Shown: one piece after another, positions 808-27,862 of the stretch
How positions within the stretch are numbered: position 1 is the stretch's first letter
Layout of the letters: every line of letters starts with the position of its first letter
Assembly: GCF_900499075.1 (NCBI RefSeq)
Contig: NZ_UIHC01000038.1
Coordinates: 1-33,098 of the forward strand
Source of the DNA: Roseinatronobacter ekhonensis
GTDB taxonomy: Bacteria > Pseudomonadota > Alphaproteobacteria > Rhodobacterales > Rhodobacteraceae
DNA length: 33,098 nt
Reading direction: 5' to 3'
The notes under the pieces: model-generated
Told to the model about the DNA's origin: nothing
The model's input: only the letters and a program-made list of their open reading frames with translations
The model's database searches: none
Translations under genes and position numbers: made by a program

Positions 808-1998
808 ATGGCCAGATCCCAATTTGGGGTAAAGACACAGTTTTCGCGGCCCGTGCGCCAGATCGTGATGATGTTGCTTGTCATCGGTCTGGTCGCTGTC
901 GGGTCCTATGTGGCTTACCCGCGCGTCTCTGGCATATTTCTGGCCAATGTCTGGCTGAACGGCCTGATTTTCTGCGTGTTCGTGGTCGGGGTACTGGCCA
1001 CGTTCTGGCAGGTCATCCAGCTTAACCGTTCTATCGTCTGGATCGAGGGTTTCGCGGCAGAGCGCGCGGGGCATGAAGCAACTGTCCCGCCGGGCTTGCT
1101 GATGCCACTTGCGGCGCTGCTGCGCGGGCGGGGCAGGGGGGCGCAGATCGGTTCGGCCTCGGCACAATCTATCCTCGATTCGGTCGCGACGCGGCTGGAC
1201 GAATTGCGCGACATTACGCGCTACATCATCAACCTTCTGATTTTCCTTGGCCTTTTGGGCACGTTCTACGGGCTTGCGACAACCGTGCCAGCGGTGGTGG
1301 AGACCATTCGCTCGCTTGCGCCGGACGAAAACCAGACCGGCATCGACGTGTTCTCTAACCTCATGTCCGGGCTGGAAGCGCAACTGGGCGGCATGGGGAC
1401 GGCGTTTTCCTCATCGCTTCTGGGGCTTGCAGGATCACTCGTCGTCGGGCTGCTGGAATTGTTCGCGGGCCACGGTCAAAACCGGTTCTACCGGCAGTTG
1501 GAAGAATGGCTGTCCTCTATCACGCGGTTGGGCTTTGCCGGTGGCGATGTCGATCAGGGTCAGGAACTGGGCGCGATCGTGCAGGTTCTTGATTCGATGG
1601 CCGAACAGATGGAGGGGATGCGCCGCCAGCAGCTTCAGGCCGACACCGAACGCGCACAGCTCGATCAGGCCCTGGGCTTGCTGGTAGAGGCGATTGACCG
1701 GCTGGCCGGCGGCAGCATGGGCGGGAACGACCCGGCGCTGGAACGGATCGCGGCGGGGCAAGAACAGATCCTGGCCTATTACCAGCGCGATGACGGTCAG
1801 GGTGGCCCGCATTCGGATGCCGAAATCCGGCTGCGCCTGCGCAATATCGACGGTCAGCTTTTGCGAATAGCCGAAGAGCTTTCGGCAGGACGGCTGGAAA
1901 CGACGGCGGACCTGCGCTCTGACCTCTCGACCCTTACACTGGCTGTGCGGCAATTGTCGCGGTCAGGCTTTGGAACGGCGCGCAAGGACGGGGCGTAG
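808..1998 (+). CDS. MotA/TolQ/ExbB proton channel family protein
   Basis: A 396-residue inner-membrane protein with four predicted membrane helices at about 16-37, 48-70, 139-160 and 196-220. The third helix carries an LGTFYGL motif and the fourth has the small-residue stretch GMGTAFSSSLLGLAGS; both are typical of the MotA/TolQ/ExbB channel domain. The cytoplasmic tail (about 230-396) is predicted helical and rich in Gln, Glu and Leu. Such proteins form ion-driven pentameric channels around a dimeric B subunit. The next gene starts two bases after this stop codon and encodes a MotB/OmpA-like protein, so the two almost certainly form one complex. It is neither clearly flagellar MotA nor TolQ, and what the motor drives is unknown. 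The start at 808 has only a weak ribosome-binding site. Confidence 0.85.
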   Translation: MARSQFGVKTQFSRPVRQIVMMLLVIGLVAVGSYVAYPRVSGIFLANVWLNGLIFCVFVVGVLATFWQVIQLNRSIVWIEGFAAERAGHEATVPPGLLMPLAALLRGRGRGAQIGSASAQSILDSVATRLDELRDITRYIINLLIFLGLLGTFYGLATTVPAVVETIRSLAPDENQTGIDVFSNLMSGLEAQLGGMGTAFSSSLLGLAGSLVVGLLELFAGHGQNRFYRQLEEWLSSITRLGFAGGDVDQGQELGAIVQVLDSMAEQMEGMRRQQLQADTERAQLDQALGLLVEAIDRLAGGSMGGNDPALERIAAGQEQILAYYQRDDGQGGPHSDAEIRLRLRNIDGQLLRIAEELSAGRLETTADLRSDLSTLTLAVRQLSRSGFGTARKDGA

Positions 1999-2000
1999 CC

Positions 2001-4109
2001 ATGGCGTTGTCGCGCAGGGGGTCCCAACGCGATGTCAGCGGTGCGATCTGGCCGGGTTTTGTCGATGCGATGACAGCTCTTTTGCTGGTGCTGATGTTCG
2101 TGCTGTCGATTTTCATGATCGTTCAATTCGTGCTGCGCGACACGATCAGCGCGCAAGACACGCAATTGCAGGGGCTGAGCGCAGAGGTCGCGCAATTGGC
2201 CAATGCTTTGGGGCTGTCGCGCGCGCGGGTCGATGCGTTGGAAGGGCAAGTCTCTGGCCTGCAAGACGAACTTGGCGGCGCAGAGGCACAGATTGCCTCC
2301 CAACTTGCGACAATTTCGGGCCTGACCCGCGATCTGGCCACGCGAGACGACGCGCTCGCGGAGGCCAGCGCCCGCATTACCGATTTCGAAGCGCAGGTTG
2401 CCGCCCTGATCGGGGCGCGCGACACGGCCTTGGCCGAGGGCGAGGCGCTGACGGCTGAACTGGCCGAAATGGATGCCGCACAGCGCCGGTTGATCAACGA
2501 GCAAGAGGCCTTGCAACTGGCCTTGTCCAACCTGCGCGACGAGTTGGACGTAGAGACAGAGGCCGCGCGTCTGGCAGCAGCGCGCGCTGATGCGATAGCG
2601 GCGGCGCTGGCCGACGCACAGGCAGAGGCGGCGGCGAAAGATGTCTCGCTTGCGCAACTGGCCGCGCAGCTGCAAACCGCAGAGGAGGCCAGTGCGGCCT
2701 TGGCGGGCGAACGCGCGCGCTTGCAGGATTTGCTGGCCCAAACGGCCGATTCAGAGGCCGAGTTGCAGGCGCGGTTGACCGCAACGCTTGATAGCCTGAA
2801 CGCAACAGAAACTGCGTCTGACACCTTGCGCGCGGATCTGGAGGCGGCGCAATCCGAACTGACCTTGGAAGAGGCCGCGCGTATCACGGCACTGGCGCGG
2901 GCAGAGCAACTTGCGCAAGAACTTGCAGCGATCGAAAATCGCCTTACCGAAGAAGCAGCACTGCGCGTTGCGGCGCAGGCGCGGGCCGAGGAATTGGCTG
3001 CGGCGCAAGAGGACGGCGCACAGGCACAAGCCAATTTGCGAACACAGATCCAGACACTGGAAGCTGACCTCTCCGACGCGGAACGCGCACGGCTGGCCGA
3101 AGCGGCAGCAGCGGAAGCATTGCGCGAAAGGCTGGCCCAGACCGAAGGCGCGTTGAACGAAGAGGAGCGCGCGCGCCTCGCAGATGTTGCCGCCGCCGAA
3201 GCCTTGCGGGCCCGCTTGGAGGAGGCCGATGCAGAATTGACAGCCTTGACGCTTGCGCTGGAAGAAGAGCGCGCGCGGGCCGAAGAAACCCTGACCCTGC
3301 TGGCTGCAGCAAGAAGCGCGCAAGATGATCTGGAGGCCGAACTGGACCGCGAGATCAGCGACCGCGAGCGCGTTGCGGCGCTTTTGTCATTGGCGCGCAG
3401 CACGCTTGCCGAGCAAGACGCCGCAAGCACCGAGGATGCACGACAGCTTGAAGTGCTGAACCAGCAGGTCTCTGCGCTGCGCGGGCAGGTTGGCGGGCTT
3501 CAAGACCTTCTGGGAGAAGCCCGCGCGCGGGCGGAGGCGGCTGACACACAGATTAAATCGCTCGGCTCGGAATTGAACCTTGCGCTGGCGGAATTGGCAG
3601 CAGAACAAAAAGCGCGCGCCGATCTGGAAGCGGCCGAACGGCGCAGGCTGGAGCGGTTCCAGTCAGAGTTTTTCGGACGCCTGCGCGACGTGCTCGAAGG
3701 CCGCGATGAGATACAGGTTGTGGGCGACCGCTTCGTGTTTTCGTCAGAGGTGCTGTTTGAATTGGGATCTGCGGAACTGTCGGATGCCGGACGCGCGCAA
3801 ATCGCCAATGTGGTGCGCATCCTGCGCGAGGTCTCTGACCGCATTCCGCCCGATATTGACTGGATATTGCGGGTTGATGGCCATACCGACAACCTTGCCT
3901 TGGCCCCCGGCGCAGAATTTGCCGACAACTGGGAGTTGAGCCAAGAGCGCGCCTTGTCCGTGGTGCGGTTCATGACCGACAGTCTTGGCTTTCCGCCCGA
4001 GCGGTTGGCGGCAACCGGTTTTGGCGAATACCGTCCCGTCAACACCGCCAACACGCCCGAGGCCCGTGCCCAGAACCGTCGGATTGAGCTGAAGCTGACA
4101 GAGCGGTAA
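2001..4109 (+). CDS. MotB/OmpA-like protein with a very long coiled coil
   Basis: A 702-residue protein. Residues about 17-44 form a membrane helix with Asp22 in the sequence GFVDAMTALLLVL, matching the proton-carrying Asp of MotB-type stators. Residues about 50-545 are almost all Ala, Glu, Leu, Arg, Gln and Asp in heptad-like order, indicating a periplasmic coiled coil. Residues about 557-702 form an OmpA/MotB peptidoglycan-binding domain: GHTD at 627-630, an LSQER motif with Arg650, and a terminal NRRIEL. Asp630 and Arg650 match the diaminopimelate-contacting pair of OmpA. The predicted role is an ion-driven complex with the channel protein encoded just upstream, tethered to the cell wall by a long rod. 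The rod is far longer than in MotB (about 300 residues in total). The downstream fliG-like gene converges on this one. Confidence 0.85.
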   Translation: MALSRRGSQRDVSGAIWPGFVDAMTALLLVLMFVLSIFMIVQFVLRDTISAQDTQLQGLSAEVAQLANALGLSRARVDALEGQVSGLQDELGGAEAQIASQLATISGLTRDLATRDDALAEASARITDFEAQVAALIGARDTALAEGEALTAELAEMDAAQRRLINEQEALQLALSNLRDELDVETEAARLAAARADAIAAALADAQAEAAAKDVSLAQLAAQLQTAEEASAALAGERARLQDLLAQTADSEAELQARLTATLDSLNATETASDTLRADLEAAQSELTLEEAARITALARAEQLAQELAAIENRLTEEAALRVAAQARAEELAAAQEDGAQAQANLRTQIQTLEADLSDAERARLAEAAAAEALRERLAQTEGALNEEERARLADVAAAEALRARLEEADAELTALTLALEEERARAEETLTLLAAARSAQDDLEAELDREISDRERVAALLSLARSTLAEQDAASTEDARQLEVLNQQVSALRGQVGGLQDLLGEARARAEAADTQIKSLGSELNLALAELAAEQKARADLEAAERRRLERFQSEFFGRLRDVLEGRDEIQVVGDRFVFSSEVLFELGSAELSDAGRAQIANVVRILREVSDRIPPDIDWILRVDGHTDNLALAPGAEFADNWELSQERALSVVRFMTDSLGFPPERLAATGFGEYRPVNTANTPEARAQNRRIELKLTER

Positions 4110-4116
4110 GTGCCGG

Positions 4117-5208
4117 TTATTCGTCCTCGTTCTGAACCACAAATTGCAGATTGCCTGCATCGGCCATGGCGCGGATTGCCCCCGAGATGCGGGACTGTGC
4201 GGCGTCAAGCTCTTTGGCAGTGGGACGGGGCAGGGTGGCTGCATCCTCGCGCATGCCTTCGGCCAATCGTTTGCTGATATTGTCGAGCAGGAAATCCATG
4301 GTTGCGCGGCAGGTGCTGTCATTGGCGGCCAGAATCAGGCGCAGGTCATCTTCCGACAGGTTGCGCATGACCAAAGCGACATCGCGCGCGGCGACACGCG
4401 TGGAAATGTCCTGAAATGTGAAGATGGATTTGCGCACCCCGCGGGCAAAGCCCTGATCCGACTGCTCCAGCCCAGACAAAAGCTGATCGCGCAACGCCGA
4501 CGGAGAAGAATTGAGGATTTCCCCGATCCGCCTGCTCGACGGACTGTCAAAGGCCCGGAGCGGCTTGTCGCAGAGTTGGTCTGCCAGCGCGCGCCCGATC
4601 CGGGCCACCGCATCGGGCGCGATTGCTTCTGTCCGAGAGATTGCAAGCGCCAGCGTTTGTGCCAGATCGCCGGGCAGGGCGCCAAGAAGGGCCGCGGCCT
4701 TGTCGGTGCTGAGTTTTGACAGAACCACTGCGCCGACCAGCGTGCTTTCCTGTTTCAATATGGCCGTCAGATCAGCCACCTCGGTCAGTTCGATATCCGT
4801 CCAAGGATCATCAACGTCGCCACCCCGCGACAGTGCGCGCAACTGCCGGGTTGCCTGCGCATCCAGTTTGCCATCCAACAAAGAGAGCGCGTCTTCTATA
4901 TTTTCGGGAAAGGACATGCCGACCTGATCCAGCATTTCCACGAATTCATCTATCACCGCGCACATTGTGGGCCGATCAATCAGCCGCAAAGACGCGAGCG
5001 CGCGCGTCATGTCCGTCTGGTCCTGCGCCGGGATGCTGGAAAACGGGAAGTTCACACCCTCTGCCAGCAGAACACGGACGATGACCGCCGCTTTTTGGGC
5101 CCCTGTCAGGTGATCGGTGCGGGCGCGGGGGGCGAAGGACGCCCCGGCAGCCGACGGAGACGGTGCCCCAGCGCGCGGATTGGCGACCGCGTTTTTCGAA
5201 TTCGACAT
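4117..5208 (-). CDS. Divergent orphan FliG-like motor switch protein
   Basis: A 363-residue protein resembling FliG along its length. The N-terminal part has LTGAQKAAVIVRVL (34-47). The middle domain is present (about 148-210), but the EHPQ motif expected near 154-157 reads ESTL. The C-terminal torque domain includes FTFQDI (263-268), and Arg314, Arg320, Glu321 and Asp322 sit where FliG carries the charged residues that contact MotA. The first 30 residues are Ala/Pro-rich and probably disordered. FliG normally links the MS-ring protein FliF to FliM in the flagellar switch. No other flagellar gene is nearby, but a MotA/MotB-like pair converges on this gene from 7 bases away. It could be the real flagellar FliG relocated, or a switch-like partner of the adjacent complex. 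The start codon has a poor Shine-Dalgarno. Confidence 0.75.
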   Translation of the reverse strand: MSNSKNAVANPRAGAPSPSAAGASFAPRARTDHLTGAQKAAVIVRVLLAEGVNFPFSSIPAQDQTDMTRALASLRLIDRPTMCAVIDEFVEMLDQVGMSFPENIEDALSLLDGKLDAQATRQLRALSRGGDVDDPWTDIELTEVADLTAILKQESTLVGAVVLSKLSTDKAAALLGALPGDLAQTLALAISRTEAIAPDAVARIGRALADQLCDKPLRAFDSPSSRRIGEILNSSPSALRDQLLSGLEQSDQGFARGVRKSIFTFQDISTRVAARDVALVMRNLSEDDLRLILAANDSTCRATMDFLLDNISKRLAEGMREDAATLPRPTAKELDAAQSRISGAIRAMADAGNLQFVVQNEDE

Positions 5209-5548: not shown

Positions 5549-6853
5549 TTACGCGCCAAACACCCGAGCAAAGATCGTTTCGACATGCTTGGTATGGTAT
5601 TCAAGGTCGAATTTTGAGCGGATCGCCTCTTCGCTCAGCGCGGCGCGGACATCGGCATCGGCCAGCAATTCGTCAAGGAAATCGGCACCGTGCTCCCAAA
5701 CCTTCATCGCATTGCGCTGCACCAATGTATAGGCGGTCTCGCGGCTGACACCGGCCTGGGTCAGCGCCAGAAGCACGCGCTGGGAATGGATCAGGCCACG
5801 AAACTTGTTCATGTTGGTCATCATGTGGTCGGGATAGACCACCAGCTTGTCGATCACGCCGGTCAGGCGGGCGAGGGCGAAATCGAGCGTGACCGTCGCA
5901 TCCGGCCCGATCATACGCTCGACGGAGCTGTGCGAGATGTCGCGCTCGTGCCACAGCGCCACGTTCTCCATGGCGGGGACCACCGCCATGCGCACCAGCC
6001 GGGCCAGACCCGTCAGGTTCTCGGTCAGCACCGGGTTGCGCTTGTGCGGCATCGCCGACGAGCCTTTCTGGCCCTTGCTGAAAAACTCTTCGGCCTCCAG
6101 CACTTCGGTGCGTTGCATGTGGCGGATTTCGATGGCGATGTTCTCAACACTGCTGGCGATCACGCCAAGCGTGGCAAAGAACATTGCATGGCGGTCGCGT
6201 GGGATGACCTGCGTGCTGATCGGTTCAGGTTGCAGCCCCATCTGCGCGCAGACATGTTCCTCGACCTCAGGGTCGATATTGGCGAATGTGCCGACAGCCC
6301 CTGAAATCGCGCCCGTAGCGACCTCTGCGCGTGCGGCCACCAGCCGGTCGCGGTTGCGCGCCATTTCGGCGTAGAACCGCGCCAGCGTCAGGCCCATCGT
6401 GGTCGGTTCGGCATGAATGCCGTGGCTGCGGCCCATGCGAATGGTGAATTTATGCTCCATCGCGCGGCGTTTCAGCGCATCCAACAGCGCGTCCATATCG
6501 GCCAGCAGCAGGTCGGCGGCGCGGACAAGCTGCACGTTGAATGTGGTGTCCAGCACGTCGGAACTGGTCATGCCCTGATGCACAAAGCGCGCTTCGTCGT
6601 TGCCGATGATCTCTGCCAGATGGGTCAGGAAGGCGATGACGTCGTGCTTGGTGACAGCCTCGATCTCGTCAATCCGCGCCACGTCGAACTCTACATCTTT
6701 GGCTTTCCACACCGCCGCCGCGCTTTCTGACGGGATAACGCCCAGTTTTGCTTGCGCATCGCAGGCATGCGCCTCAATCTCGTACCAGATACGAAACTTG
6801 GTTTCCGGCGACCAGATGGCGACCATGTCGGGGCGGGAATAACGCGGGATCAT
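5549..6853 (-). CDS. purB: Adenylosuccinate lyase
   Basis: A 434-residue enzyme of purine synthesis. It splits fumarate from SAICAR and from adenylosuccinate in the cytoplasm. The fumarase/aspartase-superfamily signature GSSAMPHKRNP is at 264-274, containing the mobile-loop serines. TSSDVLDT is at 96-103 and GRSHGIHAEP, which includes the active-site His region, is at 141-150. The length is normal for the short bacterial PurB type. The open frame extends 87 codons further upstream, but the family start MIPRYSRPDM and an AAAGGT ribosome-binding site place the start at 6853. A good promoter overlapped by a palindrome lies about 95-125 bases upstream. The gene faces the GT2 gene divergently. Confidence 0.97.
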   Translation of the reverse strand: MIPRYSRPDMVAIWSPETKFRIWYEIEAHACDAQAKLGVIPSESAAAVWKAKDVEFDVARIDEIEAVTKHDVIAFLTHLAEIIGNDEARFVHQGMTSSDVLDTTFNVQLVRAADLLLADMDALLDALKRRAMEHKFTIRMGRSHGIHAEPTTMGLTLARFYAEMARNRDRLVAARAEVATGAISGAVGTFANIDPEVEEHVCAQMGLQPEPISTQVIPRDRHAMFFATLGVIASSVENIAIEIRHMQRTEVLEAEEFFSKGQKGSSAMPHKRNPVLTENLTGLARLVRMAVVPAMENVALWHERDISHSSVERMIGPDATVTLDFALARLTGVIDKLVVYPDHMMTNMNKFRGLIHSQRVLLALTQAGVSRETAYTLVQRNAMKVWEHGADFLDELLADADVRAALSEEAIRSKFDLEYHTKHVETIFARVFGA

Positions 6854-6946
6854 GCGGGCGGACCTTTTATCATAAACGGTTGCGCGCCTGATAGCCGCTT
6901 GCGCAGGGTGCCGCAAGGCGGGCCGCTGATGTGGTCGTGTATTTAA

Positions 6947-6962
6947 CATAATACTGATTATG
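6947..6962. promoter_or_regulatory. Perfect palindrome overlapping the purB promoter, possible operator
   Basis: CATAAT and ATTATG are separated by ACTG. The palindrome covers the -10 box and part of the spacer of the putative purB promoter, the usual place for a repressor site. It also sits in the shared region with the divergent glycosyltransferase gene. The cognate regulator was not identified. Confidence 0.45.
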
Positions 6963-6976
6963 GGCATATTTGTCAT
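6948..6976 (-). promoter_or_regulatory. Candidate sigma-70-type promoter of purB
   Basis: On the minus strand ATGACA (6976-6971) is followed by a 17-base spacer and TATTAT (6953-6948). Each box matches the sigma-70 consensus at five of six positions. The -10 box lies inside the 16-base palindrome at 6947-6962. Transcription would start near 6941 and run into purB. Confidence 0.55.
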
Positions 6977-7040
6977 GTCGCAATGGGTTGCGTGTTTTGC
7001 TAGCCTGATATCGGTTTGAACTTTAGGAGATTTCGGCAGC

Positions 7041-7973
7041 ATGCTGTCCGCCACCAAACAGACTTGGCATGACGAATTGCCTGCCTGTGTGGATGTTTGC
7101 ATCCCGTTCTTCAAGGATGACCCGGTGGCGCTGATCGATGAACTGACCCAACAGGACGGCGCCGAAAACTACCGGCTGTCGCTGTGCGACGACGGCTCCG
7201 GCGTGCCCGATCTGTCCGCGCGCGTTGCTCAGGCCCTGGCCCGTCACCCCGGCCCTGCGGTATTGCATACGCTTCCGCGGAATTGCGGACGCGCCCATGC
7301 CCGCAATGTCATGCTGCAAGATGTCCGTTCGGATTGGGTGTTGATGCTGGATGCCGACATGTCGCTGGACCGCCCCGATTTTGTGACAGGGTATCGCGAC
7401 GCCGCCGAGGCGCATGCAGAGCCCTGCTGCATCGTCGGCGGATTTCGGGTCGATGCAGCGGATGTGACCCCTGAAACCGTCCTGCATGCGGCGCAATCCA
7501 TGAAGTCGGAATGCAAGCCGGCCCGGCTGCGCGCGCGCGACCCCGGACGCCACGTCTACAGCTCTTCGGTATTCGTGCATCGCTCCATCGTGACACGGCA
7601 TTTGTTCGACCCGCAATTTCAGGCATGGGGCTGGGAAGATGTCGAATGGGGCTGGCGCATTGTGAAAGAAAGCCCGGTTTACCATATCGACAATCCGGCG
7701 CGCCATCGGGGGCTGGAACCTGATAACATCCTGATCCAGAAATATGCCGAGTCGGTCGATAATTTTCGCAGGATCAAACGGTTATACCCGGAAAATGTCG
7801 CGCGTATGCCGATTGCACGGGTATCTTATGCGCTGTCCTACCTTCCGTTTCAGGGAGTTTTGGGACGCATGTTCAAAGCGACCTCGCTCTCTGTGTGGCT
7901 TCCGGTGGTGTTGCGGTTATATGCGTTGAAACTGTATCGCGCTTCGCAATATGCATGGGTGTATCATGAATGA
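7041..7973 (+). CDS. Family 2 glycosyltransferase
   Basis: A 310-residue GT-A fold glycosyltransferase. The N-terminal nucleotide-sugar region has VDVCIPFFKDD (17-27), an Asp-Asp pair in SLCDDGS (47-53) and the metal-binding Asp-x-Asp as DAD (104-106). WGWEDVEWGW (196-205) matches the acceptor-side motif of the galactosyltransferase C-terminal (GT7C-like) domain. The last 50 residues include a hydrophobic stretch that may contact the membrane. An AGGAG Shine-Dalgarno precedes the ATG. Its stop codon overlaps the start of the polysaccharide deacetylase gene, so the two probably act on the same surface glycan or glycolipid. Donor and acceptor cannot be told from the sequence. Confidence 0.85.
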   Translation: MLSATKQTWHDELPACVDVCIPFFKDDPVALIDELTQQDGAENYRLSLCDDGSGVPDLSARVAQALARHPGPAVLHTLPRNCGRAHARNVMLQDVRSDWVLMLDADMSLDRPDFVTGYRDAAEAHAEPCCIVGGFRVDAADVTPETVLHAAQSMKSECKPARLRARDPGRHVYSSSVFVHRSIVTRHLFDPQFQAWGWEDVEWGWRIVKESPVYHIDNPARHRGLEPDNILIQKYAESVDNFRRIKRLYPENVARMPIARVSYALSYLPFQGVLGRMFKATSLSVWLPVVLRLYALKLYRASQYAWVYHE

Positions 7974-16927: not shown

Positions 16928-18109
16928 ATGAAAAAGCTGCTTCTTGCCAGCACCGCGCTGGCACTTTCCGCAGGGATCGCCACGGCCCAAGAGGTAAAGA
17001 TGGGCGTTCTGCTGGGCTATACCGGCCCGATCGAAGACATCACCCCCTACATGGCTGACAGCGCCGAACTGGCGATGAGCGAAATCAGCGACAGCGGGAT
17101 GTTCCTTGGCGGCGCGACCATCACCCCGGTGCGCGCCGATTCGACCTGTGTGGACAGCTCCGCCGCGCAAGCCGCTGCCGAGCGTCTGATCTCGTCCGAC
17201 GGGATTGTCGCAATGGTCGGCGCGGATTGTTCCGGCGTGACCATGGCCGTGCTGCAAAACGTGGCCATGTCGGCAGGTGTGCCGATGATTTCGCCGTCTG
17301 CGACCTCGCCCGCGTTCACCACGACCGAATCGAACGGCATGTTCTTCCGCACCGCGCCGTCGGATGCGCGCCAAGGCGTGATCCTGGCCGATATCGTGAT
17401 GGAGCGTGGCTTCGACACCGTTGCGCTGACCCATACCAACAACGACTACGGCTCTGGCTTTGCAACGGCCTTTGCCGAAGCCTACACGGCGGCAGGCGGC
17501 ACCATCACCACCACCGTTCCGCATGAAGAAGCCAAGGGCGACTACTCCGCCGAAGTTGGCACGCTGGCTGCGGCCGGTGGCGATGCCCTTATCATTCTGG
17601 GTTACACCGATGGCGGCGGCTCCGTGCTGCGCACCGCCTATGAGCTGGGCGCGTTCGATCAGTTCTTCATGGGCGACGGCATGTATGGCGATGCGCTTAT
17701 CGCCAATACCGGAGAGGCGCTGGAAGGCACCGTGGGCACCATTCCATGGGCGCAAGGCGATGGCGCGGACGCGTTCACCGCCGTTGCCGAAGCCGCCGGT
17801 GTGCGCGCCGATAGCAGCTATACCCGCGAAAGCTATGACGCTGCCGCCATTCTGGCACTGGCCGCCCAGGCCGCAGGCGAAGCAACACCCGCCGGTATTG
17901 CCGCCAACGTGCTGAACGTGGCCAACGCGCCGGGCGAGCCGATCCTGCCGGGCGAGCTGGCCAAGGGTCTGGAAATCTTGGCAAATGGTGGCGAGATCGA
18001 CTATGTCGGCGCAACCAATGTCGAACTGGTCGGCCCCGGCGAAGCGGCAGGCAGCTTCCGTGAATACATCGTCGACGGCGGCGAATACACCACGGTCAAG
18101 TTCCACTAA
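16928..18109 (+). CDS. Branched-chain-amino-acid-type ABC transporter substrate-binding protein
   Basis: A 393-residue periplasmic binding protein of the Leu/Ile/Val (Peripla_BP_6) family. Residues 1-20 are a Sec signal peptide ending ATA, with cleavage before Gln21. The mature N-terminus EVKMGVLLGYTGPI is the typical first strand and ligand loop; SPSATSPAFT and NDYGSGFA are the expected ligand-contact regions. A GGGAGA Shine-Dalgarno precedes the ATG. It heads a five-gene operon (binding protein, two ATPases, two permeases). A strong hairpin directly follows, which would fit higher expression of this component. The ligand may be a branched-chain amino acid, an amide or an aromatic compound; sequence alone does not decide. 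Confidence 0.92.
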   Translation: MKKLLLASTALALSAGIATAQEVKMGVLLGYTGPIEDITPYMADSAELAMSEISDSGMFLGGATITPVRADSTCVDSSAAQAAAERLISSDGIVAMVGADCSGVTMAVLQNVAMSAGVPMISPSATSPAFTTTESNGMFFRTAPSDARQGVILADIVMERGFDTVALTHTNNDYGSGFATAFAEAYTAAGGTITTTVPHEEAKGDYSAEVGTLAAAGGDALIILGYTDGGGSVLRTAYELGAFDQFFMGDGMYGDALIANTGEALEGTVGTIPWAQGDGADAFTAVAEAAGVRADSSYTRESYDAAAILALAAQAAGEATPAGIAANVLNVANAPGEPILPGELAKGLEILANGGEIDYVGATNVELVGPGEAAGSFREYIVDGGEYTTVKFH

Positions 18110-18130
18110 TCCACTTGGTTGAAACTGGTT

Positions 18131-18162
18131 TTGCGGCCCATGGGGAAACCCTTGGGCCGCAA
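18131..18162 (+). terminator. Intercistronic hairpin after the binding-protein gene
   Basis: TTGCGGCCCA (18131-18140) pairs perfectly with TGGGCCGCAA (18153-18162), and GGG/CCC inside extend the stem. There is no T run after it, so it looks like a partial terminator or an mRNA-stabilising stem that favours the binding-protein message over the downstream ATPase and permease genes, a common pattern in ABC operons. Confidence 0.6.
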
Positions 18163-18186
18163 GCCATACGCGGGACCGTATTGCAT

Positions 18187-18978
18187 ATGTCCATGATCCG
18201 GGTGGAAAACCTGCACAAGCATTTCGGCGGCTTTCACGCCGTTGATGGCGCAAGCTTGGAAATCGCCGAGCGCTCTATTACCGGGCTGATCGGCCCGAAT
18301 GGCGCGGGCAAGACGACGCTGTTCAACGTGATCGCGGGCGTGCTGCCGCCGACATCCGGCAAGGTCATCATGCAGGGCGAGGATATCACCGGCCTGCCCC
18401 CCCACGCACTGTTCCACAAGGGGCTGCTGCGCACCTTCCAGATCGCGCATGAATTTCATTCGATGACGGTGCGCGAAAACCTGATGATGGTGCCGCCGCG
18501 CCAGTCGGGCGAAAACCTGTGGGACGCATGGTTCCATGGCGCGCGCGTGCGCGAGGAAGAACGCCGCATCCGCACCCGCGCCGACGAGGTGCTGGAATTC
18601 CTGACCATCGACCATATTGCCGATGAAAAAGCGGGCCAGATTTCCGGCGGGCAGAAAAAGCTGCTGGAATTGGGCCGCACCATGATGACCGACGCCAAGA
18701 TCGTCTTTCTGGACGAGGTTGGCGCGGGCGTGAACCGCACGCTTCTGAATACGATTGCCGATGCGATTGTGCGGCTGAACCGCGAACAGGGCTATACATT
18801 TGTCGTGATCGAGCATGACATGGATTTCATCGGCCGGATTTGCGACCCCGTGATCTGCATGGCAGAAGGCCGCGTGCTGGCCGAGGGTAGTCTGGACGAG
18901 ATCAAGGCCAACGAGCAGGTGATCGAGGCGTATCTGGGCACTGGCTTGAAGAACAAGGTCAAGGACGGCGCGGCATGA
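18187..18978 (+). CDS. ABC transporter ATP-binding protein, LivG type
   Basis: A 263-residue ATPase of the branched-chain amino acid uptake family. Walker A is GPNGAGKTT, the signature is ISGGQKK, Walker B is IVFLDE and the switch His is in VIEHDMDF. The C-terminal VIEAYLGTG tail is characteristic of LivG. One oddity is DEVGAGVN after Walker B where DEPAAGLN is usual, so the Pro of the D-loop region is lost; the catalytic Glu is intact. The start MSMIRVENL at 18187 lies 24 bases after the intercistronic hairpin. It pairs with the LivF-type ATPase encoded downstream. Confidence 0.9.
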   Translation: MSMIRVENLHKHFGGFHAVDGASLEIAERSITGLIGPNGAGKTTLFNVIAGVLPPTSGKVIMQGEDITGLPPHALFHKGLLRTFQIAHEFHSMTVRENLMMVPPRQSGENLWDAWFHGARVREEERRIRTRADEVLEFLTIDHIADEKAGQISGGQKKLLELGRTMMTDAKIVFLDEVGAGVNRTLLNTIADAIVRLNREQGYTFVVIEHDMDFIGRICDPVICMAEGRVLAEGSLDEIKANEQVIEAYLGTGLKNKVKDGAA

Positions 18979-19007
18979 GGCCGGTCGCGTGTCGCCGCGC
19001 GGCGGAT

Positions 19008-19040
19008 GCCTCCGGCGGGAGTATTTTTAGCAAGATGAAA
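19008..19040 (+). repeat. Short dispersed intergenic element, copy 1
   Basis: The 22 bases 19019-19040 match 28512-28533 at 21 positions (shared core GAGTATTTTT, then GCAAGATGAAA). Here they are preceded by GCCTCCGGCGG (19008-19018). The element lies between the two ATPase genes, 16 bases before the next start codon. From memory, very similar strings are frequent between genes in Rhodobacteraceae. Confidence 0.6.
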
Positions 19041-19056
19041 TGGGCGGGGTGTGAGC

Positions 19057-19767
19057 ATGGCTGAGCCTTTCTTGATTGGCGACGCCATGACCGGCGGCTA
19101 TGGCGGCGCAGATATTCTGCATGATTGCACGATTGCCGTGGAAAAAGGCCAGATCGCGGTGATTGTCGGACCCAACGGCGCGGGCAAATCGACCGCGATG
19201 AAGGCCGTGTTCGGAATGCTGAAGCTGCGCCTGGGTGCGGTGCGGTTGGAGGGCGAGGATATATCCGCGCTCACCCCCCAAGCCCGCGTCGCCAAGGGCA
19301 TGGGCTTCGTGCCGCAGACCAGCAATATCTTTCCGTCGATGACGGTCGAGGAAAACCTGGAGATGGGCGCGTTCATTCGCCGCGACGATATCGCCGCGAC
19401 GATGGAGCAGGTCTACACGCTGTTCCCCATCCTGCGCGACAAGCGCGGACAGGCGGCGGGTGAGCTATCGGGCGGGCAGCGCCAGCAGGTCGCCGTTGGC
19501 CGCGCGCTGATGACCCAGCCGAAGGTTCTGATGCTGGACGAACCGACAGCGGGCGTCAGCCCCATCGTGATGGATGAATTGTTCGACCGCATCATCGAGA
19601 TCGCGCGCACCGGCATCAGCATTCTGATGGTGGAACAAAACGCCCGCCAAGCGCTGGAGATTGCCGACAAGGGCTATGTTCTGGTGCAGGGCGCAAACCG
19701 ATACACCGACACGGGTGCCGCCCTTCTGGCCGACCCGGATGTGCGCAAATCGTTTTTGGGGGGCTGA
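19057..19767 (+). CDS. ABC transporter ATP-binding protein, LivF type
   Basis: A 236-residue ATPase, the second nucleotide-binding subunit of the branched-chain-type importer. Walker A GPNGAGKST, signature LSGGQRQQVAVGRAL, Walker B VLMLDEPTAGVSP and the H-loop replaced by MVEQN are all as expected for LivF, where Gln takes the switch-His place. MGFVPQTSNIFPSMTVEENL is the typical Q-loop region. I prefer the ATG at 19057 over the GTG at 19051. The gap of 78 bases to the previous gene holds the dispersed element; the permease gene follows three bases after the stop codon. Confidence 0.9.
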   Translation: MAEPFLIGDAMTGGYGGADILHDCTIAVEKGQIAVIVGPNGAGKSTAMKAVFGMLKLRLGAVRLEGEDISALTPQARVAKGMGFVPQTSNIFPSMTVEENLEMGAFIRRDDIAATMEQVYTLFPILRDKRGQAAGELSGGQRQQVAVGRALMTQPKVLMLDEPTAGVSPIVMDELFDRIIEIARTGISILMVEQNARQALEIADKGYVLVQGANRYTDTGAALLADPDVRKSFLGG

Positions 19768-19770
19768 GGC

Positions 19771-20781
19771 ATGGAATTTCTGAACGCACTCGTCACCCTG
19801 TCGAATTTCATGCTGGTCCCGGCGCTCGCCTATGGCAGCCAGTTGGCGCTGGGCGCGCTGGGGATAACGCTGATCTATTCCATCCTGCGGTTCGCCCATT
19901 TCGCCCATGGCGACACCATGGCGCTGGGCACCGCCGCCGTGATCGGGGGCACGTTTTTCCTGCAAGGCCAAGGCATTGGCATAGCCCCCCTGCCCACTGC
20001 GCTGCTGGCCGTGCCGTTTGGCGTGCTGGTCATGGTGGGCTATCTGTTGGCCGCGGACCGGCTGGTCTATCGCTACTACCGGCGGGTGCGTGCCAAGCCG
20101 ATGATTTTTGTCATGGCCAGCCTGGGCGTGATGTTCGTGACCAACGGCATCACCCGCCTGTTCATGGGTGTGGGCGAAACCCGGTTCGAAGATGGCGAGC
20201 GTTTCGTGTTCAGCGTGCGCGAATTCCGCGCGTTTACGGGTCTTGCCGAAGGCTTGGCGCTGCGCAATGCGCAGGCCATCACCATCGTGACCGCGCTGAT
20301 CGTGATGATTGTCCTTTTCTGGTTCCTGACCCGCACGCGTGCCGGAAAATCCATGCGCGCCTATTCCGACAACGAGGATCTGGCGCTGTTGTCGGGTATC
20401 AACCCCGAACGGGTGGTGACGATCACATGGGTGATCACGGCCATCCTGCTGGTGCTGGCGGGCACGCTCTACGGGTTGGACAAGGGCTTTCGGGCCTTCA
20501 ACTATTTCCAGCTTCTGCTGCCAATGTTCGCGGCGGCCATTCTGGGCGGCTTGGGCAGCCCCATCGGGGCGATTGTCGGGGCCTATGTGGTGGCCTTTGC
20601 CGAAATGGGCGTGACCTTTGCGTGGCGGCGCGTCGCGGGCTATCTGCTGCCCGAGGGGTTTGAGCCATCGGGCATGGTCCAGCTTTTGCCGGTCGATTAC
20701 AAATTCGCCGTCACCTTCATGATCCTTGTCATTGTGCTGCTGTTCCGGCCGACGGGCATTTTCAAAGGGAGAGTGCTATGA
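19771..20781 (+). CDS. Branched-chain-type ABC transporter permease, LivH type
   Basis: A 336-residue integral membrane permease of the LivH family, with eight or so predicted hydrophobic helices. Hallmarks are YGSQLALGALGITLIYSILRFAHFAHGD near the N-terminus and the coupling-helix region THE R-A-Y-S-D-N-E-D-L-A-L-L-S-G-I-N-P segment that docks on the ATPases. AAAILGGLGSPIGAIVGAYVV follows, as in other LivH proteins. It begins three bases after livF and overlaps the next permease gene by four bases (ATGA). It forms the heterodimeric channel with the LivM-type protein. Confidence 0.9.
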   Translation: MEFLNALVTLSNFMLVPALAYGSQLALGALGITLIYSILRFAHFAHGDTMALGTAAVIGGTFFLQGQGIGIAPLPTALLAVPFGVLVMVGYLLAADRLVYRYYRRVRAKPMIFVMASLGVMFVTNGITRLFMGVGETRFEDGERFVFSVREFRAFTGLAEGLALRNAQAITIVTALIVMIVLFWFLTRTRAGKSMRAYSDNEDLALLSGINPERVVTITWVITAILLVLAGTLYGLDKGFRAFNYFQLLLPMFAAAILGGLGSPIGAIVGAYVVAFAEMGVTFAWRRVAGYLLPEGFEPSGMVQLLPVDYKFAVTFMILVIVLLFRPTGIFKGRVL

Positions 20782-22076
20782 CCGCGCGCGGCTTTGGCCT
20801 GTTCGCCCTGATGGGGCTGGTGTTGCTGGGCGTTGGCGCTCTGCAAAGCTGGCAGCTTGCGATCACCATCCTGAACATGAGCCTGATCTCGGCCATCATG
20901 GCGCTCGGCGTGAACATGCAGTGGGGCTATGCGGGCCTGTTCAACGTGGGCGTGATGGGCTTTACCGCCATTGGCGGGCTGGCGGTGGTGCTGGTCGCGC
21001 AGCCGCCGGTGCCAGAGGCATGGGCCGCAGGCGGAATGGGCGCGCTGCTGGGGCTGCTATTGGGCGTGGCGAGCATACTGGCCGCCGTGGTGGTCTATAA
21101 ACGCCTGCCCAAAGGGCGCCTGCGGGCCTTGGCCATGGTGGCGGTGCTGGTGGCGGGGTATTTCATCACCTCCGCCGTGTTCGGCCCGGCCACGCAGGCC
21201 ATTGAAGCGGTGAACCCCGCGTCCGAGGGTTATCTGGGCGGGCTCGGCCTGCCCGTTGTGCTGGCATGGCCCGTGGGCGCGCTATTTGCGGGCGGTGTGG
21301 CGTGGATGGTGGGCAAGGTAAGCCTTGGCCTGCGCTCGGACTATCTGGCCATTGCGACGCTGGGCATATCCGAAATCGTCATCGCGGTGCTGAAATTCGA
21401 GGGCTGGATGTCGCGCGGCGTTAACAACGTAACCGGCATTGACCGCCCCGTGGTGCGCCCCGTCGACCTGCAAACCGAAAGCTGGTTGCAAGCGCTGGCC
21501 GAAACCCTTGGCTGGGAGGTACAGCAAACCGCCTCTGTCGTCTCTGGCCTTGGGTATGCGGCGCTTTTCACGCTGGTCCTGGGTCTGCTGATCTGGCTGT
21601 CAGAGCGGGCCTGGACCTCGCCCTGGGGGCGGATGATGCGCGCGATCCGTGACAACGAGGTATCGGCCCGCGCCATGGGCAAGGATGTTACGCAACGCCA
21701 TCTGGCGGTGTTCATTCTCGGCTCTGCGGTCTGCGGTCTGGCGGGCGCGATGATGGTGTCAATGGACGGCCAGCTTACCCCCGGCAGTTACGAGCCGCTG
21801 CGCTACACATTCCTGATCTGGGTGATGGTTATTGTCGGCGGATCCGGCAACAACTGGGGCGCCGTGCTGGGCGGGTTCGTTGTCTGGTTCCTGTGGGTGC
21901 AGGTCGAACCGGCCGGGCGCTGGTTCATGGAACTGGCGACAGCGGGTATGGCGGACGGGTCGGACCTGAAAGACCACCTTTTGGGGTCGGCCAGCTACAT
22001 GCGGCTGCTGACAATGGGCGTGGCGCTTCTGCTGATGCTGCGCTTTGCCCCGCGCGGTCTGATCCCCGAAAGATGA
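20778..22076 (+). CDS. Branched-chain-type ABC transporter permease, LivM type
   Basis: A 432-residue permease of the LivM family. Motifs include the N-terminal LNMSLISAIMALGVNMQWGYAGLFNVG, SLGLRSDYLAIATLGISEIV in the middle, and the coupling loop MRAIRDNEVSARAMGKDV. VGGSGNNWGAVLGGFVVW comes near the end, and the tail LRFAPRGLIPER is typical. The length is at the upper end for the family because of an extra hydrophobic region around residues 75-150 between the first helices. Start and stop both overlap neighbours by four bases, so the operon is translationally coupled through to the MocA-like gene. Confidence 0.9.
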   Translation: MTARGFGLFALMGLVLLGVGALQSWQLAITILNMSLISAIMALGVNMQWGYAGLFNVGVMGFTAIGGLAVVLVAQPPVPEAWAAGGMGALLGLLLGVASILAAVVVYKRLPKGRLRALAMVAVLVAGYFITSAVFGPATQAIEAVNPASEGYLGGLGLPVVLAWPVGALFAGGVAWMVGKVSLGLRSDYLAIATLGISEIVIAVLKFEGWMSRGVNNVTGIDRPVVRPVDLQTESWLQALAETLGWEVQQTASVVSGLGYAALFTLVLGLLIWLSERAWTSPWGRMMRAIRDNEVSARAMGKDVTQRHLAVFILGSAVCGLAGAMMVSMDGQLTPGSYEPLRYTFLIWVMVIVGGSGNNWGAVLGGFVVWFLWVQVEPAGRWFMELATAGMADGSDLKDHLLGSASYMRLLTMGVALLLMLRFAPRGLIPER

Positions 22077-24172: not shown

Positions 24173-24964
24173 TTACGATCCCGCAGCTGCCACCGCACGG
24201 CGAGTCATAACCCCCACCAGATGCGCGCGGTAGGCTGCCGTGCCATGCAGGTCCGCGATCATCTCATGGGCGGAATGCGCCAGACCGTCGAGCGCATTCG
24301 CGCTGAAATCGGAGGACAGCGCGGCTTCGGCCTCTGCCCAGCGGAACACGCCGTTTTCCGACGCGCCGGTGATCGCCACGCGCACGCCACTGGCGTAGCG
24401 CGCCACAAAGGCGGCGGTCAGCGCGAAACGTGACGCCGGTTGCACGAATTTGGCGTAGGCCGAGGCTTGCGGGATGGGCAGGCGGACCGAGGTGATGATC
24501 TCACCCTCTTCCAGTGCGGTGGTGAACATACCCTGAAAGTAGTCATCCGCCGCGATCTCGCGCCGGTCGGTAACAATGGTTGCCCCCGTGCCAAGTGCCG
24601 CAGCCGGATAGCAAGCGGACGGGTCATTGTTGGCCAAACTGCCGCCGATGGTGCCCTTGTTGCGCACCGCCGGATCGCCGATCTGGCCGGCCAAAGCCGC
24701 CAGACCCGGAAAGTCGCCCGCCGCATCGCGTGCAACCTGCGCATGTGTCGTGGCCGCACCGATGACAAGCGTGTCCCCTTCGCGGCACACACCAACCAGT
24801 TCCGGAATACCCGTCAGGCTGACCAAACTGCCCGGCGCGTTCAGCCGCGCTTTCATGGATGGGATCAGGGTTTGCCCGCCCGAAAGCGGCTGCGCCTCTT
24901 CCCCCGCCAAGGCCGCAACGGCATCGGCCACGGAGCCGGGTTTTACGAAGTCGAAATTATACAT
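24173..24964 (-). CDS. CoxM-like FAD-binding subunit of a molybdenum hydroxylase
   Basis: A 263-residue flavoprotein subunit of the xanthine dehydrogenase/CO dehydrogenase family. The two FAD-pyrophosphate motifs are visible: SGGQT (28-32), corresponding to AGGHS of CoxM, and TIGGSLANNDPS (105-116). The start MYNFDFVKPGS is typical. It passes electrons from the iron-sulfur subunit to a quinone or other acceptor. A strong GGGAGGAG Shine-Dalgarno precedes the ATG, and the gene lies 13 bases after coxL. It is the last gene of the S-L-M operon. Confidence 0.92.
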   Translation of the reverse strand: MYNFDFVKPGSVADAVAALAGEEAQPLSGGQTLIPSMKARLNAPGSLVSLTGIPELVGVCREGDTLVIGAATTHAQVARDAAGDFPGLAALAGQIGDPAVRNKGTIGGSLANNDPSACYPAAALGTGATIVTDRREIAADDYFQGMFTTALEEGEIITSVRLPIPQASAYAKFVQPASRFALTAAFVARYASGVRVAITGASENGVFRWAEAEAALSSDFSANALDGLAHSAHEMIADLHGTAAYRAHLVGVMTRRAVAAAGS

Positions 24965-24977
24965 GGGTTCTCCTCCC

Positions 24978-27350
24978 TTAACCGTTCATCGCGGCCCAGA
25001 CGCGCGACGGCGTCAGCGGCATGTCGATATGCGTGATATGCGTGTGGCCCGCGCGGTGCAGCGCGTCGATCGCGGCGTTGACCACAGCGGGTGGTGAGCC
25101 GATCGCCCCCGCCTCGCCACAGCCTTTTACCCCCAGCGGGTTATGCGTGCAGGGTGTGACGCAGCTATGATCGACCGTAAAGCCGCGCATGTCATCGGCG
25201 CGTGGCATAGTGTAATCCATGTAGCTGCCCGACAAAAGCTGGCCCTGATCGTCATAGACGCAGTTTTCCAGCAATGCCTGCCCGATCCCTTGGGCCAGAC
25301 CGCCATGCACCTGCCCCTCAACAATCATCGGGTTCACGATATTGCCGAAATCATCGGCAGCGATGAAACGCAGGATGTCGATCTTGCCGGTTTCGGGGTC
25401 CAGCTCAACCTCGCACCCATAGGCGCCCGACGGGTAGGTGAAGTTCGACGGGTCGTAGAATGCCGTCTCCTCCAGCCCCGGTTCCAGCTCTTCCAGCGGG
25501 TAGTTATGCGGCACATAGGCCGCAAGCGTCACACCCGACCAATCGACCGATTTGTCGGTGCCCGCGACACTGAATTTACCGTCCTTCAGCTCGATATCTT
25601 CGGGCGCGGCTTCCAGCAGGTGGGCGGCGATCTTCTTGGCCTTGTCGATGATCTTGTTGGTGGCCTTCACAATGGCCGATCCGCCGACCGCCAAGGACCG
25701 AGAGCCGTAGGTGCCCATGCCCATCGGGGTGTTGGACGTATCGCCATGGTGGATCTCGATGCTGTTGGCATCGACCCCGATCATCTCCGCAACCACTTGG
25801 GCGAATGTGGTTTCGTGCCCCTGCCCGTGGCTGTGGCTGCCGGTATAGACGCTGATCGACCCGGTGGCGTTCACCCGCACCGAAGCCGACTCGTAAAGCC
25901 CCGCCCGTGCGCCAAGCTGGCCCACAAGGTTCGACGGCGCGATGCCGCAAGCCTCGATGTAATGCGCAATGCCGAAGCCGCGCAGCTTGCCGCGTGCCGC
26001 ACTTTCCGCGCGGCGCGCTTCAAAGCCCGCGTAGTCGGACAGTTCCAGCATTTTATCCATCGTGGCGTGGTAATTGCCAGTATCGTAAACCACCGCGACA
26101 GGGGTTTGATACGGGAATTCCTCGGGCTTGATGAAGTTCTGACGGCGCAATTCAATCGGGTCCACGCCCAATTCGCGCGCAGCCTTGTCGACCAGCCGTT
26201 CAATCTGGAACGTGGCCTCTGGCCGCCCTGCCCCGCGATAGGCATCGACCGGCACGGTATTGGTAAACACCGCCTTCACATTCACATAAATCAGCGGGGT
26301 CTTGTAATTCCCGGCCATCAGCGTGCCGTGCAGCCAAGTCGGGATGGAGGGCGCGAAGGTCGACAGATACGCGCCCATATTGGCGTAGGTTTCCGTGCGC
26401 AAAGCGGTGAAGTTATGGTCCGCATCCAACGCCAGTTCGATCTTGGTTTTATGATCGCGGCCATGCGCGTCAGAGATGAACGCCTCGGACCGCGACGAGG
26501 TCCATTTCACAGGGCGTTTCAAGACCTTGGCGGCGTAGGTGCAGAACGCTTCTTCCGCGTAATGGTAGATCTTGGACCCGAACCCACCGCCCACATCGGG
26601 CGCGACCACGCGCAGCTTGTGTTCGGGAATGTTCAGCACGAACGCGCCCATCAGCAGGCGGATGACATGCGGGTTCTGGCTGGTGGTATAAAGCGTGTGG
26701 CTGTCGCCCCAAGGGTCGTAATCGCCCACGGCGACGCGCGGTTCCATCGGGTTGGCGACAAGGCGGTTGTTGGTCAGTTCCAGACTGACCACATGCGCGG
26801 CGTTGTTGAACGCCTCATTCACCGCGTCCTTGTTTTCTTCGACAAAGCCCCAGTCGTAGCACAGGTTCGACGACAGATCGTCATGCACCTTGGTCGCGCC
26901 GTCTTTCAGCGCGGCCTTCATGTCGACAACCGGCTCAAGTTCTTCGATATCAACCTCGATCGCCTCTGCGGCGTCGCGAGCCTGCGCGTAGGTTTCTGCC
27001 ACCACCGCGCAAATCGGGTCGCCCACATGGCGCACCTTGCCCTCGGCCAGAATGGGGTGCTTGGGCTCCTGCATGGGTTGGCCATGCTTGTCCGTCACCT
27101 GCCACCCGCAGGGAATGCCGCCCGCGCTGTCGAAATCGGCAGCGGTGAACACCCGCAGTACACCGTCCATCGCTTCGGCAGCAGAGCTGTCGATCCCCTT
27201 GATCCGCCCATGCGCCACGTCCGAGCGCAGGAAATGCACATAGGTCTGGCCGCGCAGGTTAATGTCGTCGGTGTATTTACCGTTCCCGGTCAGGAACCGC
27301 GTATCCTCGCGCCGCTTTGTGCTGGCGCCGATGCCGTCATCTTTTGGCAT
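24978..27350 (-). CDS. Form II CoxL-like molybdopterin-binding catalytic subunit
   Basis: A 790-residue large subunit of a molybdenum hydroxylase. GGGFGSK (254-260) contacts the cofactor, and Glu746 in GCGEAGAIG is the active-site base. The active-site loop reads AYRGAGR (370-376). Genuine form I CO dehydrogenases have AYRCSFR, with the Cys that binds copper; AYRGAGR marks form II enzymes, whose CO oxidation is doubtful and whose true substrate is generally unknown. The GGGAGAG Shine-Dalgarno and the 26-base gap after coxS indicate one operon. A MocA-like gene nearby could supply the cytosine dinucleotide cofactor. No coxD/E/F/G maturation gene is in the window. Confidence 0.93.
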
Positions 27351-27376
27351 GTCTCTCTCCCTGAAAATCCCGTGTG

Positions 27377-27862
27377 TTATTCAGCCGCCAAAGCGCCCAC
27401 ATCCTGACCGGACGCTGCCATGACCGCACGCACGATGTTCTGATACCCGGTGCACCGGCAGATGTTGCCTTCCAGATAATGGCGCACCTCTTCCTCGGTC
27501 GGCTTGGGGTTGTCGGCCAGAAGGGCTGCCGTGCTCATCACCATGCCCGGCGTGCAATAGCCGCATTGCAACCCGTGGTAATCCTGAAACGCCTGCTGGA
27601 TGTTGCCCAAGCTGCCATCGGGATTGGCCATGCCCTCGACGGTTGTGACCTCTGCCCCCTCCAGATCGGCGGCAAAGGCGGTGCAGGATTTGACCGCCTG
27701 CCCGTTCACCAGCACCACGCAAGCGCCGCATTGGCTGGTGTCGCAGCCGACATGGGTGCCGGTCAGTTCCAACCCCTCGCGCAGGAAGCCCGACAGCAGC
27801 GTGCGCCCTTCTACCTCTGCGGCCATCTTGCGACCGTTTACCGTCATCGTCACCTTGCTCAT
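27377..27862 (-). CDS. CoxS-like 2Fe-2S subunit of a molybdenum hydroxylase
   Basis: A 161-residue iron-sulfur subunit with the full set of eight cluster Cys. Cys40, 45, 48 and 60 form the plant-ferredoxin-type cluster ([10 protein letters not shown] and KSC). Cys100, 103, 135 and 137 form the second cluster near the molybdenum (QCGYC and ICRC). It relays electrons from the molybdenum site to the FAD subunit. A GGGAGGAG Shine-Dalgarno precedes the ATG. It is first in the S-L-M order that is typical of form II enzymes, whereas form I operons are M-S-L. It is divergent from the universal stress protein gene across 146 bases. Confidence 0.94.

Follow-up and report, generated by a model that had tools for sequence, protein, structure and literature searches.

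In Rhodobacterales, the flagellar rotor gene fliG has been described at a distance from the other flagellar genes. For the fla1-type fliG of Phaeobacter inhibens (PGA1_c18800), a position far from the flagellar cluster of that genome has been reported, together with three transposon mutants of the gene that cannot swim (PMC11974857). In Rhodobacter (Cereibacter) sphaeroides, the fliM and fliG genes of the vertically inherited flagellar system are both reported at other places on chromosome I (PMC7277832). Here, we analysed a fliG-containing stretch of 33,098 nucleotides from Roseinatronobacter ekhonensis (NZ_UIHC01000038.1, hereafter the window), which is contig C151 of a 3.9 Mb draft assembly in 196 contigs. 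Its divergent fliG (4117-5208, minus strand, 363 amino acids) converges with two plus-strand genes: an ExbB/TolQ/ZorA-like channel gene (808-1998, 396 amino acids) and, starting two bases after the channel stop codon, a gene for a MotB/OmpA-like peptidoglycan-binding partner (2001-4109, 702 amino acids). A preliminary description of this DNA gave the layout correctly, and proposed that the channel could engage FliG in a rotary or force-transmitting complex outside the flagellum. Our analysis points elsewhere: with a probability of roughly 0.88, the window fliG is an ordinary off-cluster flagellar rotor gene that stands beside an unrelated core gene pair by chance. Like its P. inhibens counterpart, it is found away from the flagellar genes; unlike that counterpart, to which it would be orthologous (as it would be to the R. 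sphaeroides gene), it adjoins the channel pair, an arrangement seen only in the genus of the window.

A FliG_C search of the organism's own genome returned a single match, the window gene, and thus no second fliG. FlhA is encoded on contig C114. C137 carries MotA, FliF, FliN and FliP, the last two side by side, and next to FliF a weak match to FliL; about 2 kb separate FliF from the flagellar MotA. C119 encodes a FliM-like protein of 357 amino acids, which is divergent. These own-genome profile searches (FliG_C, FlhA, FliF, FliM, SpoA and MotA_N) matched only fliG on the window contig, in agreement with the earlier observation that the 33 kb hold no further flagellar gene. The suggestion that the three genes belong to a scattered motor set holds for fliG, and also for the FliM-like gene on C119, but not for the channel, since the flagellar MotA is on C137. 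The window fliG would thus encode the torque-receiving rotor (C-ring) protein of the organism's own flagellum, with partners encoded on C137 (MotA, FliF and FliN) and on C119 (the divergent FliM-like protein). Gene content, uniqueness, synteny, domains and fold are observed here; that FliG works in this organism's flagellum we infer from the Phaeobacter and R. sphaeroides reports.

The protein itself is recognisable as FliG. Its FliG_N (60.1 bits), FliG_M (54 bits) and FliG_C (73.1 bits) domains occur in this order, all above the Pfam gathering scores. A predicted structure (mean predicted local distance difference test score, pLDDT, 84.4; predicted template modelling score, pTM, 0.53) gave 13 fold matches in the PDB at E<=0.001, every one of them to FliG or the C-ring; the global TM-scores were low (0.25-0.51 by query), and single domains matched better (TMt 0.80-0.88, at ranks 14, 15 and 19). 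The charged residues previously listed for the torque helix region (Arg314, Arg320, Glu321 and Asp322) are all present, and we take them to match the charged torque-helix residues of E. coli FliG. Arg314 and Arg320 are invariant across 32 aligned FliG sequences, and position 322, Asp in the window protein, is Glu in at least 90% of them.

Several observations weigh against the reading as the organism's flagellar rotor gene. Against NCBIfam TIGR00207, the protein scores 103 bits, under the equivalog cut-off of 226.7, which would fit a divergent FliG member. It also lacks the EHPQ motif of the middle domain, with ESTL at 154-157 as the preliminary description had it; ten relatives' FliG proteins have ES.E in place of EHPQ, which is the usual but not the defining motif of this domain. 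The flagellar genes identified in the organism are dispersed over several contigs of a draft assembly. Across 295 family genomes, FliG_C was matched in 252 and FlhA in 227 (226 above the cut-off; G155 was counted as positive on a weak, sub-cut-off match), with genomes lacking either match identified by elimination from the listed handles. Both were found in 217 genomes, FlhA only in 10, FliG only in 35 and neither in 33. The ten FlhA-positive genomes without a FliG_C match (G028, G054, G058, G076, G166, G207, G216, G223, G225 and G273) include three that are at least 99% complete (G054, G058 and G076). FliG is kept in 35 of the 68 FlhA-less genomes, and it is thus not obvious that the protein serves flagellar rotation alone.

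The channel pair has a different identity and distribution. The channel protein has four hydrophobic stretches and a long tail after the fourth, and it matched no Pfam family at E<=0.1, hence no MotA_N domain; a PDB sequence search gave nothing beyond two chance-level matches. Its best PADLOC match is ZorA1 (2.8e-13), and the OmpA-like protein matches ZorB3 (9.3e-24). The original MotA/TolQ/ExbB label therefore stands at the level of remote similarity only, favoured by the ZorA1 match and not by any Pfam family. The partner, with an OmpA domain at residues 585-693 after a long middle part, belongs with the PRK09039/NF006542 peptidoglycan-binding proteins (683.7 bits against NF006542, cut-off 388). 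Its Asp22, pointed out earlier as proton-type, is indeed placed just before or at the start of a hydrophobic stretch (best hydropathy window from residue 27); a membrane-helix Asp is common to the wider ExbD/TolR/MotB group.

This pair is close to universal in the family. The channel was found in 289/295 genomes (259/260 of the good genomes), and in all 30 channel loci read, the channel gene is followed directly by the N-terminal part of the OmpA-like partner. As none of the 33 genomes that lack both FlhA and FliG is without the channel, the core pair needs neither a flagellum nor FliG. The pair would be a separate core envelope motor, possibly of the proton-type 5:2 kind and acting on the cell wall/peptidoglycan or the outer membrane, which a rearrangement in this genus may have brought next to fliG. 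A literature search found no paper on its function.

Two other identities for the pair were rejected. A flagellar stator is contradicted by the lack of a Pfam/MotA_N match in the channel and by the genome's one MotA_N match, which sits on C137. The resemblance to ZorA and ZorB of Zorya defence is at superfamily level, and Zorya forms a sporadic defence island, whereas the window channel belongs to the family core. In Zorya, zorC/D or zorE stand beside zorAB; a Pfam scan of twelve other window proteins showed nothing resembling these, with PADLOC covering the channel, OmpA-like and FliG proteins. As a side observation on the channel survey, two genomes of different genera have identical channel proteins (L042 and L043, in G196 and G256), and G196 has a second channel match; G196 is therefore likely contaminated.

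To compare gene neighbourhoods, we read 58 fliG loci, namely the window and 57 from relatives; one of them, G217, has no whole fliG and is outside the neighbourhood counts. The channel cluster adjoins fliG in only 2/57 loci, both from the window's genus. In the 75 genomes with both coordinates printed, which include a few FliG places of a high-scoring, probably acquired type, channel and fliG are within 20 kb of each other in two; in 17 others they share a contig but are 61 kb to 2.8 Mb apart. A conserved three-gene island is rejected. The usual neighbour is purB. The script's gene calls place it within four genes of fliG in 41/57 loci, and Pfam adds the window, making 42; acnA is found there in 24/57. 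In this family, then, fliG would sit outside the flagellar cluster, usually near purB. Two records from a FliG scan of a genome collection are odd in themselves. The same fliG locus occurs near both ends of the 4.68 Mb chromosome record of a Maritimibacter metagenome-assembled genome (MAG; L213 and L214, CP051232.1), probably as redundant ends of a circular assembly, and a Sphingomonadales-titled record (L244, JACXUS010000077.1) has a Rhodobacterales-type fliG and is perhaps mislabelled or misbinned.

Could the channel pair nevertheless serve as a stator on this FliG? The two adjoin in the window's genus, FliG has retained its torque-helix charges, and the channel is present in all 35 FliG-bearing FlhA-less genomes. 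However, it is equally present in every one of the genomes without FlhA and FliG, the adjacency is limited to 2/75 genomes, and this organism has a separate flagellar MotA. Both outcomes that the preliminary description named as refuting the idea have come about: the window gene is the only fliG match of a genome with flagellar genes, and the neighbourhood is confined to one genus. The channel-FliG complex is not supported, and we consider it very improbable.

The idea that FliG might work without a flagellum fared better than its proposed companion: the pattern in other genomes gives it unexpected support, but FliG is accompanied there by FliM and not by the channel. Only two of the 68 FlhA-less genomes, G224 and G258, keep FliF; dropping these two reduces the FliG-only genomes from 35 to 33. 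The flagellar MotA was matched in none of 74 FlhA-less genomes and in 6/6 flagellated ones. The Pfam family PF02154 proved unusable as a test for FliM because it misses 12/12 flagellated controls, and we therefore used SpoA as the query for FliM and FliN. Each of the 12 controls has two SpoA proteins, of which the shorter is FliN and the longer is FliM-like; given the PF02154 result, the FliM-like partner of this FliG appears to be divergent too.

Exactly one SpoA protein was found in 32 of the 33 FliG-only genomes (open frames of 267-556 codons), above the family cut-off in 31 and just under it in G078. It is an unlinked FliM-like protein in all but G074, and none of the 32 genomes has a FlhA, FliF, FliN or flagellar MotA match. 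The sole exception, with no SpoA match, is G196, which is 64% complete. Of the 33 genomes lacking both FlhA and FliG, 29 have no SpoA protein, G156 (sub-cut-off) and G158 have a FliM-like one, and G033 and G172 have canonical FliM and FliN. Over the 66 FlhA-less, FliF-less genomes, the co-occurrence of FliG and SpoA has a Fisher p of 5e-13, a value that ignores kinship. Completeness is at least 99% in 22/33 FliG-only genomes, and three single-contig genomes (G055, G141 and G269) have both genes whole and no match to FlhA, FliF, FliN or MotA.

A few genomes are arranged differently. Canonical FliM and FliN are adjacent in the two small genomes G033 (C37:1527-2718) and G172 (C1:215786-216923; L165, L166, L168 and L169), in neither of which FliG_C, FliF, FlhA or MotA_N was matched. 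In G074 (C1:487792-551052; L138 and L167), FliG is of a different type, 26% identical to that of the window, and FliM is recognised by PF02154; no FlhA, FliF, separate FliN or MotA was matched there. We retained G074 and G277 in the 33, and omitted G074 from the FliG tree that includes G140 and G256. The FlhA-less genome G267 has the fliM-like gene and fliG as neighbours (C10:11376-13306; L117 and L261); in the other genomes, the printed fliM and fliG places are on different contigs or far apart.

The same pattern appears among named genomes. We scanned a genome collection with ten FliG sequences, giving 80 loci on 79 contigs (the best 80 of 477), and tested 50 of these contigs for FlhA and SpoA. 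Ten of the 50 are without FlhA, including Aliiroseovarius subalbicans N1Y82, Maritimibacter dapengensis, M. harenae, Celeribacter sp. PS-C1, Pacificibacter marinus D2R04 and Psychromarinibacter sediminicola; three of the ten are shared with the first sample (G241, G214 and G244). All ten have one SpoA protein of FliM length (open frames of 332-416 codons). The flagellar MotA, sought in six of the other seven, was found in none of those six.

The FliM-like gene also has a conserved neighbour. In 56 of 58 fliM loci (L258-L277 and L315-L354 in our numbering), a histidine kinase gene lies directly upstream on the same strand, in genomes with and without a flagellum, and the gap between the two genes is 10-110 bases in 51 of the 56. 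The kinase member that we examined has about ten hydrophobic stretches; Pfam shows HisKA and HATPase_c only, with no family match for its sensor part. The genome of the window is one of the two exceptions without the kinase upstream of fliM.

Why would FliG and FliM persist together? We regard two explanations as about equally likely. FliG and its divergent, unlinked FliM-like partner may have a second job in addition to their flagellar role. Purifying selection would then preserve the two as a module after the flagellum is lost, perhaps with a link to the membrane histidine kinase whose gene precedes fliM, to which they could be coupled, for example, as a ring or scaffold in the cytoplasm. 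We hold this tentatively, at a little under even odds; a non-flagellar role of the module, with no tie to the channel, is plausible but unproven. Alternatively, and with a chance not far from one in two, the pair may be left over: the flagellar cluster would be lost in one deletion, and the off-cluster fliG and fliM would linger and decay later, in line with the remnants of lost motors discussed in the available part of PMC12199754. The co-occurrence itself (32/33 with one SpoA protein, against 4/33 FliG-less genomes with any), its repetition in the named genomes, the missing MotA and the conserved kinase speak for a second job, and leftovers sit uneasily with the fact that hardly any genome retains one of the two genes alone. 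The state of the frames bears on both. Both genes are apparently whole in 29/33 genomes (the fliM sequences retrieved cover 29 of the 33 and, as a named twin, G244; in G074 and G078 the gene is judged by its open frame alone; the fliG match of G129 crosses one stop near an end), and a rotor gene is broken in three, with fliG broken or truncated in G217 and G277 and fliM broken in G144. In a neutral simulation with point changes only, the fliG frame stayed intact in 14% of runs at 0.1 substitutions per site, in 4% at 0.2 and in 0/400 at 0.5; 29 whole against three broken is the opposite of what neutral decay predicts, although the broken cases themselves are what leftovers would produce. The FlhA-less MAGs L205 and L206, sisters in the FliG and purB trees, likewise argue for selection: for FliG, dN is 0.127 and dS 1.04 (nonsynonymous and synonymous substitutions per site; dN/dS 0.12, or 0.14, 0.08 and 0.11 by its three domains), and dN/dS is 0.19 for FliM. 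The median for FliG in flagellated pairs is 0.21 (30 pairs).

The losses are scattered, with flagellated close relatives frequent, which speaks for leftovers and against a second job, and in the channel tree (30 genomes: 18 rotor-keeping and 12 rotor-less ones, out of 33 of each kind) G158, with FliM only, and G160, with neither gene, adjoin the rotor-keeping G269. Two rotor-only genomes from different genera, G140 and G256, group together in the FliG and channel trees, which speaks for a second job, but they do not group in the purB+acnA tree; this last tree conflicts with the FliG tree, and we did not use it as a species tree. Another apparent flagellum-less sister pair by FliG distance, L191 and L201, was dropped as a case of joint loss because the FliG tree leaves them in an unresolved fork together with the flagellated L202, and the purB tree joins L202 to L201. 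A pair test on the starred branches of the channel tree comprises three independent pairs, with which significance is unreachable; FliM followed FliG in 2.3 of the three on average, and practically never the opposite. FliG distance relative to PurB+AcnA is somewhat larger in flagellum-less genomes (median ratio 2.26 vs 1.88), which counts against a second job. A box upstream of fliG, presumably a CtrA-like site, is also weaker without a flagellum: it has at most two mismatches in 24/32 such loci compared to 25/25 with flagellar genes, against a background of 165/1160 random windows.

Elsewhere in the window, the fliG flank in most loci read, purB (adenylosuccinate lyase), occupies 5549-7114 on the minus strand, with its real start probably inside this open reading frame (ORF). 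Of the 34 called ORFs, we scanned the three genes of interest and eleven others with Pfam, together with purB, which lies outside that set; the other twenty are listed only. Genes for a molybdopterin hydroxylase are at 24173-27862, where Pfam recognises its large MoCoBD subunit and its 2Fe-2S subunit beside a third ORF. A run of ORFs at 16928-22076 starts with a Peripla_BP_6 substrate-binding protein (Pfam) and continues with ABC-type ATPase and permease ORFs, judged by eye, which suggests an amino-acid-type transporter.

There is nothing unusual in the locus itself: as reported for its order, the flagellar gene lies apart from its cluster, and its neighbours here are a core pair unrelated to it. 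The novelty is that this FliG and its FliM are retained as a pair in genomes without the flagellum. An earlier study reports that 11% of non-motile species have rotor proteins but no filament proteins, and raises another function for the former; the part of it available does not describe FliG being kept jointly with a divergent FliM in Rhodobacterales (PMC12199754). The non-flagellated Lysobacter enzymogenes likewise keeps flagellar genes with other functions, but there the export genes are kept and FliG is lost, the reverse of flagellum-less Rhodobacterales (PMC9927559). The accessible portions of the literature searched, including PMC11974857, PMC7277832, PMC9927559, PMC10954123, PMC6180460 and PMC12199754, did not yield joint FliG/FliM keeping in flagellum-less Rhodobacterales. 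Such wider persistence would matter, and the question is now concrete: it concerns two named genes and can be pursued in about 30 candidate genera, with three genomes that are single contigs. If the second job is real, these bacteria would keep half a motor with its own job beyond the flagellum.

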